Positions 9,176 to 49,835 of a stretch of DNA of 64,000 bases are shown here, in pieces (within the stretch, counting starts at the first letter, position 1; each line of letters starts with the position of its first letter). This DNA comes from Pseudomonadota bacterium (lineage in GTDB: Bacteria; Desulfobacterota; Desulfobulbia; Desulfobulbales; JAGXFP01). Location: the NCBI GenBank assembly GCA_018814305.1, contig JAHJAA010000058.1, positions 1-64,000 of the forward strand. Direction: 5' to 3'. The notes under the pieces were generated by a model. The model saw only the letters and a list, made by a program, of their open reading frames with translations. It had not been told where the DNA came from and did no database searches. The translations under genes were made by a program, and so were the position numbers.

Positions 9176-10006
9176 ATGCTGCCCCACACCTTCATGCATA
9201 TCCAGGGTATAGGCCCAAAAACCGAAGCCCGACTCTGGCAGGACGGCCTCACCACCTGGGATGATCTCTATAAACAGTCCCCAAAACTCTACTCCCCAGC
9301 CCGAGCCCGATATATCCGCACCTGTCTTGACGAAAGCCGTATCAACCAGGACACCCCATCCGCTATGTCTGCGCTGCTGCCCACCAGCCAGCATTGGCGC
9401 CTCTTTCCCCACTTCCGTGAACGCACAGTCTATCTCGATATCGAAACAACCGGCCTTGGTGAGTTTGCCGACATCACCACCATCGCCCTCTATGACGGAA
9501 CCAGTATCCGCTGGTATATCAACGGAGATAACCTGGATGATTTTCCCCGGGACATCAACGATTCAAAAGTCATCGTCACATACAACGGCAAGTCATTCGA
9601 CATCCCGGTGATCGAACGTTTTTTTAATATGAAATTACCCCAAACCCAACTGGACCTTCGTCATATTCTAAGACAACTGGGGTATTCAGGAGGACTGAAG
9701 GGGTGTGAACAAAAACTGGGATTAAATCGAGGAGAATTGAGCGGGTTTGACGGGAGCCTAGCAGTCATTCTCTGGCACACCTACAGGAGAACCGGCGACC
9801 AGCGAGCCCTTGCGACTCTACTGGCCTATAACATACTCGATACAGTCAATCTGGAAATCCTGATGGTCGAGGCCTACAACCGGAATGTAGCAAAAACCCC
9901 TTTCGCAGAAAGTCTCACACTCCCTCCCCCGATCTCGCCCACCCTCCCCTTTGTAGCGGACCACGACCTATTGGAGACCATCCGGCGCCAACATTTCCGC
10001 TGGTAG
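9176..10006 (+). CDS. RNase H-like (YprB/RNase_H_2-type) 3'-5' exonuclease-like protein
   Basis: 276 residues. The N-terminal 10-45 region contains a helix-hairpin-helix-like IQGIGPKTEARLW element. The main domain (about 80-255) shows LDIETTGL (acidic motif I), TYNGKSFDIPVIERFF (motif II) and a late YNILDTVNLE (motif III), as in the RNase_H_2/YprB family of DEDD-type nucleases. The family is poorly studied; a nucleic-acid processing role is inferred. The gene begins about 40 nt past the acs terminator and converges on the trxC-like gene with only 10 nt between them. Confidence 0.75.
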   Translation: MLPHTFMHIQGIGPKTEARLWQDGLTTWDDLYKQSPKLYSPARARYIRTCLDESRINQDTPSAMSALLPTSQHWRLFPHFRERTVYLDIETTGLGEFADITTIALYDGTSIRWYINGDNLDDFPRDINDSKVIVTYNGKSFDIPVIERFFNMKLPQTQLDLRHILRQLGYSGGLKGCEQKLGLNRGELSGFDGSLAVILWHTYRRTGDQRALATLLAYNILDTVNLEILMVEAYNRNVAKTPFAESLTLPPPISPTLPFVADHDLLETIRRQHFRW

Positions 10007-10016
10007 CCCTCTTTCC

Positions 10017-10463
10017 TCAAGGACATAATTCGTAACGACGAAACCAGGCAAGCACCGCTTCAGGCGATTGTGCCCCGGACATTTGATCCACAATCTTTCC
10101 CCGACTGAGTAAAACCAGCGCAGGGATACCTCGGACTCCAAACCTTTGACCCAGATTAGGATTCTCCTGGGTATTCACCTGGACCACCACCGCACATCCG
10201 GCCAACGCCATTGCCACCTTTTGCACCGCCGGTGCAAATGAGACACAGTGAGGTCACCATGGCGCCCAGAACTCGGCCAGCACCGGACCGGAATACCCAG
10301 CAACGAAGCCGTCAAAATTTGACTCGGACAGAGGCTTGGGTTGGGAATACAAGGGAGACAAAACAGTACGGCATTGCCCACAGCGCCCAACTATTCCTTC
10401 TTTCTCGCCCGGAATCCTATTGCCTTTCCCACAGCCAGGACATTTGACAATAAATGAAGCCAT
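10017..10463 (-). CDS. trxC: TrxC-type thioredoxin, apparent selenoprotein (Sec at residue 70, UxxC active site)
   Basis: The reading frame is interrupted once, by TGA at 10256-10254, exactly where the first Cys of the thioredoxin active site belongs: EFWAPW-[TGA]-PHC. Reading it as Sec gives 148 residues. A zinc-ribbon N-terminus has CPGC at 8-11 and CGQC at 28-31, as in thioredoxin 2. Then come the U70-P-H-C73 active site, VNTQENP, and the cis-proline loop GIP at 112-114. Protein homology continues in the same frame on both sides, so this is not a frameshift. A hairpin beginning 15 nt after the TGA fits a bacterial SECIS. The ATG at 10463 is chosen because GGAGGA lies 6 nt upstream and the protein then aligns with TrxC. 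The alternative is a recent nonsense mutation or sequencing error. Confidence 0.85.
10220..10256 (-). promoter_or_regulatory. Candidate bacterial SECIS element with the recoded UGA
   Basis: Minus-strand RNA reads UGA (10256-10254), a 15-nt spacer, then a perfect 8-bp stem UUUGCACC/GGUGCAAA (10238-10231 and 10227-10220) with a GGC apical loop. The loop lies about 24 nt after the UGA and begins with GG. Spacing and loop resemble the E. coli fdhF SECIS, as known for SelB recruitment. Confidence 0.75.
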
Positions 10464-49566: not shown

Positions 49567-49835
49567 GCTATCAGTGGATCAGCGTATTTCGATCCCTGCC
49601 TCCTGAAGGTGCTTCTTCACGTCAACGATTGGCACTTCCTTTCTATGGAAGATACCGGCAGCCAAAGCCGCATCCGCATTTGTAGCCTCAAAAACCTCAG
49701 AGAAATGTTCAACCTTGCCAGCACCACTTGAGGCAATCACCGGTATGGTTACCTTGTCTTTGACCATTCTAATCAGTTCCAGGTCACGACCCTCGCGACC
49801 GCCTTTGATGGTACACTGATACCAACAAATCCTGA
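49567..49835 (-). pseudogene. Partial hisF copy (3' end of hisHF) with internal deletion
   Basis: This minus-strand segment is roughly 90% identical by eye to the last part of the hisHF gene at 54854-55213. It encodes the cyclase C-terminus ([17 protein letters not shown]...[10 protein letters not shown]). Relative to the full gene it lacks 99 nt between two copies of TCCAGGTCA (55062-55070 and 55161-55169 in the intact gene), an in-frame loss of 33 codons. Upstream homology stops near 49835. It lacks the barrel core and glutaminase, so it is non-functional. Confidence 0.85.

Follow-up and report, generated by a model that had tools for sequence, protein, structure and literature searches.

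Thioredoxins with selenocysteine (Sec) are already on record for the Geobacter group. The selenoproteins recorded for G. sulfurreducens, G. metallireducens, and G. uraniireducens include a thioredoxin, with one Sec thioredoxin given for the last of these (PMC1794560), and GSU3446 is cited as the TGA thioredoxin of Geobacter (PMC1914089). A selenothioredoxin has also been reported by Kim et al. (2015), as cited in PMC13188914. The gene considered here lies in a window of 64,000 nucleotides (the whole stretch of DNA that was analysed), and we are confident that it encodes a Sec thioredoxin: a zinc-ribbon protein resembling thioredoxin 2 (Trx2, or TrxC), belonging to a mostly Sec-containing family of the Geobacter group, and probably acquired horizontally. 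Its features are as follows.

10463..10017, minus strand: predicted zinc-ribbon Sec thioredoxin gene, 148 aa, UPHC active site; ATG at 10463, terminal TGA at 10019-10017
10371..10442, minus strand: N-terminal zinc ribbon, CxxC (residues 8 and 11) and CxxC (residues 28 and 31), from the family alignment
10254..10256, minus strand: in-frame TGA, codon 70 (the U of UPHC), very probably decoded as selenocysteine, from codon comparison among homologues
10220..10238, minus strand: SECIS hairpin, UUUGCACC-GGC-GGUGCAAA, from wobble constraint, pair covariation, a covariance model, and folding

A GGAGG ribosome-binding site stands upstream of the ATG at 10463. The first-pass annotation, made from the letters alone, had described a single in-frame stop falling exactly at the first Cys of a WAPW-C-x-x-C motif, with thioredoxin homology continuing unbroken across it. 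Both points are borne out: translation of 10463-10017 (minus strand) contains one internal stop, the TGA at residue 70 (WAPW-U-PHC), and the Pfam Thioredoxin match spans residues 44-140, TGA included (E 6e-24). The window holds 45 TGAs with at least 55 open codons on either side, so an open frame is by itself weak evidence; only the TGA at 10256-10254 sits at a recognisable redox motif. All four zinc-ribbon Cys residues are invariant in the family alignment, and Zn_ribbon_Thio2 matches residues 8-32 at a score under the Pfam cut-off. The structure model of the thioredoxin is of moderate confidence (pLDDT 73), and its best Foldseek matches are Trx2 structures. Five family loci were inspected for a conserved gene neighborhood, and none was seen. 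Elsewhere in the window, two near-identical ORF ends, KKHLQE(A/E)GIEIR-stop at 49581 and 54865 (minus strand), suggest from their sequence a duplicated gene.

The earlier annotation had proposed aligning TrxC homologues at the TGA codon, and this comparison is informative. A contig scan returned nine relatives at 57-66% identity, all from Geobacter, Geobacteraceae, or Desulfuromonadaceae MAGs; codon 70 is TGA in two of these, whose sequence here is near-identical, and TGC or TGT in seven. A profile search across 141 genomes, all from the order to which the best-matching Geobacter/Desulfuromonadaceae genomes belong, then yielded 89 loci spread over 84 genomes; 77 of these loci contain an in-frame TGA, of which 76 were read and one, a short fragment, was left out. 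Every one of the 76 has its TGA at codon 70, and the remaining homologues have TGC or TGT, encoding Cys. The sequence downstream of the TGA is conserved among homologues. Slightly different motifs occur in two TGA homologues (FWSPTUPHC and FWVPWUPHC), one genome (G117) carries one family member, with TGA, and a further homologue (L096) has additional stops and may be a decayed gene. No relatives were found in viral contigs. Two genomes (G059 and G060) hold a Cys copy of the thioredoxin (L033 and L034), and neither SelB nor tRNA-Sec scores above cut-off in them, a combination that fits loss of the Sec system.

A hairpin with a GG loop at SECIS distance had also been proposed, and here the comparative evidence is decisive, rather than the folding of a single sequence. 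The stem has eight pairs closed by a GGC loop, beginning 15 nt past the TGA, with the loop GG 23 nt past it. Folding in isolation gives z -0.98 for the 61-nt stretch, which does not stand out, and z -2.73 for the 27-nt hairpin. Across 65 distinct Sec genes (window gene excluded), however, the hairpin GCACC-GGY-GGTGC is nearly frozen, third codon positions included: entropy at its five wobble sites is 0-0.33 bits, whereas the majority of the other degenerate wobble positions around it have about 0.5-1.9 bits. In the Cys genes the same hairpin sites are relaxed (0.9-1.9 bits) and the pairs break. At the third stem pair, 61 of the 65 Sec genes have C:G and the other four T:A, with no mismatch; the window gene has T:A, and a pair count over 27 diverse genes agrees with this covariation. 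A covariance model built from those 27 genes, with the window gene left out, places the window site at the top of 213 kb (59.5 bits, E 8e-13). Cys homologues score 14-37 bits under the model, with the exceptions of L109 and L151; these two group with Sec genes in the tree and look like recent Cys replacements. No SECIS family in Rfam matched at the hairpin. The hairpin is clearly under RNA-level constraint, and its conservation in relatives, the absence of which had been named as grounds for abandoning the Sec reading, extends through the 65 Sec genes.

The genome also carries selA, selB, and selD. A full-length selB lies on contig C10, and C19 carries a second SelB, which is divergent and shares 28% identity with the one on C10. 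One selD is on C19, and a second on C18 (G000:C18:28023-28952; L178) has an in-frame TGA at the redox position (GLARTCG-U-AAK) followed by a GG-loop hairpin, indicating at least one further Sec gene in the genome. Of the four components that the first reading had advised looking for, three are thus present; the fourth, a canonical tRNA-Sec (selC), was not found in the assembly with an Rfam model, two DNA queries, or ARAGORN around selA, selB, selD, and the window contig. C45 and C10 gave short matches, which were rejected as they are not tRNAs. Canonical tRNA-Sec is present in 35 of 37 relatives searched and adjoins glyQ in all six relatives whose loci were read. Since glyQ, the usual neighbor, was likewise not found in the assembly (with a query from a same-family genome, in a search that had no positive control), the two absences likely represent one assembly gap. 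Two genomes of the same order contain 89-nt tRNA-Sec-like genes (G007:C61:757-845 and G012:C104:8240-8328), matching the selC*-type tRNA in length and scoring similarly; both also hold a canonical 94-nt tRNA-Sec.

Taken together, the conservation of the TGA, the RNA-constrained SECIS, and the presence of selA, selB, and selD support the central proposal of the first-pass annotation, that Sec replaces the first active-site Cys. SelB acting on the hairpin at 10238-10220 would direct decoding of the UGA at 10256-10254 as Sec. In the resulting UPHC redox centre, Sec would serve as the attacking residue and Cys73 as the resolving residue, and the N-terminal CxxC-CxxC ribbon would bind zinc. The selenothioredoxin mentioned at the outset is reportedly a plain thioredoxin, without a zinc ribbon. 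Disulfide-reductase or isomerase activity may be predicted for the window protein, with thiol-disulfide exchange suggested by its family membership. The PH dipeptide of DsbA is expected to raise redox potential over that of CGPC; by analogy, the same dipeptide here suggests a more oxidising centre.

A different decoding of the UGA must also be considered. A single UCA tRNA was found in the genome. It lies on C19, directly upstream of the second SelB, and does not look like a typical tRNA-Sec, having A1:U72 and U73, an acceptor of 8 bp, and a bulged A in a T stem of 4 bp. A selC* tRNA-Cys with the same features, likewise followed by a second selB, has been described (PMC7609411), and the C19 tRNA matches it in A1:U72, U73, acceptor, T stem, and following selB. 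This selC*-type tRNA-Cys(UCA) and its SelB (G000:C19:1967-3979; L175; L052) occur within a selenium cluster that also includes SelD, YedF, a double-cubane reductase and its activase, and a rhodanese-like protein. C19 is therefore a candidate for a UGA-to-Cys decoding system alongside the standard Sec system, and occasional insertion of Cys at UGA is possible. One UGA and one hairpin could conceivably serve both, with Sec inserted through SelB and tRNA-Sec, and Cys through selC* and SelB* under selenium scarcity; we regard such dual decoding as unlikely, but if true, the reactive residue of this zinc-ribbon thioredoxin would change with the supply of selenium. It is decidedly improbable that the UGA is read simply as Cys, the selC* tRNA-Cys and SelB* using the same SECIS to produce a CPHC thioredoxin, whether always or at low selenium. 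The features of the tRNA and the divergent SelB directly after it favor such a reading, but SelA, a full-length standard SelB, and a Sec-containing SelD are all present, relatives possess canonical tRNA-Sec, the hairpin was shaped in genomes that mostly show standard tRNA-Sec, and CysRS* is not adjacent to selB* on the piece read.

The Sec thioredoxin gene does not appear to be ancestral to its host. A 109-protein tree nests the window protein within a supported 65-row clade of the Geobacter-group family, and all 27 TrxC proteins from the organism's own order, its own family included, fall outside (support 100/97). The family occurs in only six of 395 genomes drawn across the phylum. The neighboring gene at 9176-10006 has its best matches (57-61%) in the organism's own family, indicating that the contig is native rather than foreign. 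These observations are most simply explained by transfer of the gene and its SECIS together, and the gene was probably transferred horizontally into this order from the Geobacter group, a direction suggested by the tree. Contamination of the gene or contig by a Geobacter-like genome would also place its closest kin in that group, but is very improbable given the affinity of the adjacent gene and an identity of at most 68% to any Geobacter-group member found. That the TGA is a true stop in a decayed or truncated gene is scarcely credible: under table 11 it is the only stop inside the gene, and a 96-aa ORF ends there, but the same codon is TGA in 76 homologues, the hairpin wobble sites are frozen, and conserved sequence continues beyond. 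Sequencing error and decay were likewise rejected, as TGA and hairpin are conserved.

Standard gene calling would cut this selenoprotein short at its TGA. The locus is a clear example of a gene that probably moved horizontally, along with the SECIS in its coding region, to a host that has a SelB of its own. The family, in which many members have Sec and several have Cys and a decaying hairpin, forms a good natural series for the study of Sec-to-Cys replacement, and the selC*/SelB* pair in the same genome provides a place to test in the cell whether UGA is read as Cys instead of Sec.

The TrxC-type label given initially holds in part. The window protein resembles Thioredoxin 2/TrxC (E. coli TrxC; 7d6l, 7ysi, 2ppt, and 3p2a) in its two CxxC pairs ahead of the thioredoxin domain and in its top Foldseek matches; its active site, however, is UPHC rather than CGPC, and it scores 91.4 bits against the NCBIfam TrxC cut-off of 125. 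It carries the marks of a Geobacter-group UPHC Sec-thioredoxin: nesting in that tree, a (W/T)-U-P-H-C motif, and the common SECIS. Given a family with TGA throughout the Geobacter-group order, the Geobacter Sec thioredoxins (GSU3446, matched by description rather than sequence) are very probably of the same family. The suggestion that a zinc-ribbon TrxC with a UxxC site is a new type is accordingly weakened, since a TGA thioredoxin was already listed for Geobacter; a literature search found no paper combining selenocysteine, thioredoxin, and zinc ribbon, and thus the zinc-ribbon and UPHC features of this known kind may be undescribed. The window protein shares a UxxC site with the selenothioredoxin of Kim et al. 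(2015), for which, as cited in PMC13188914, there is biochemical evidence of a Sec advantage. It shares with the Sec thioredoxin of Geobacter (GSU3446; PMC1914089, PMC1794560) both TGA encoding and the bacterial group of its family, but resides in an organism of another order.
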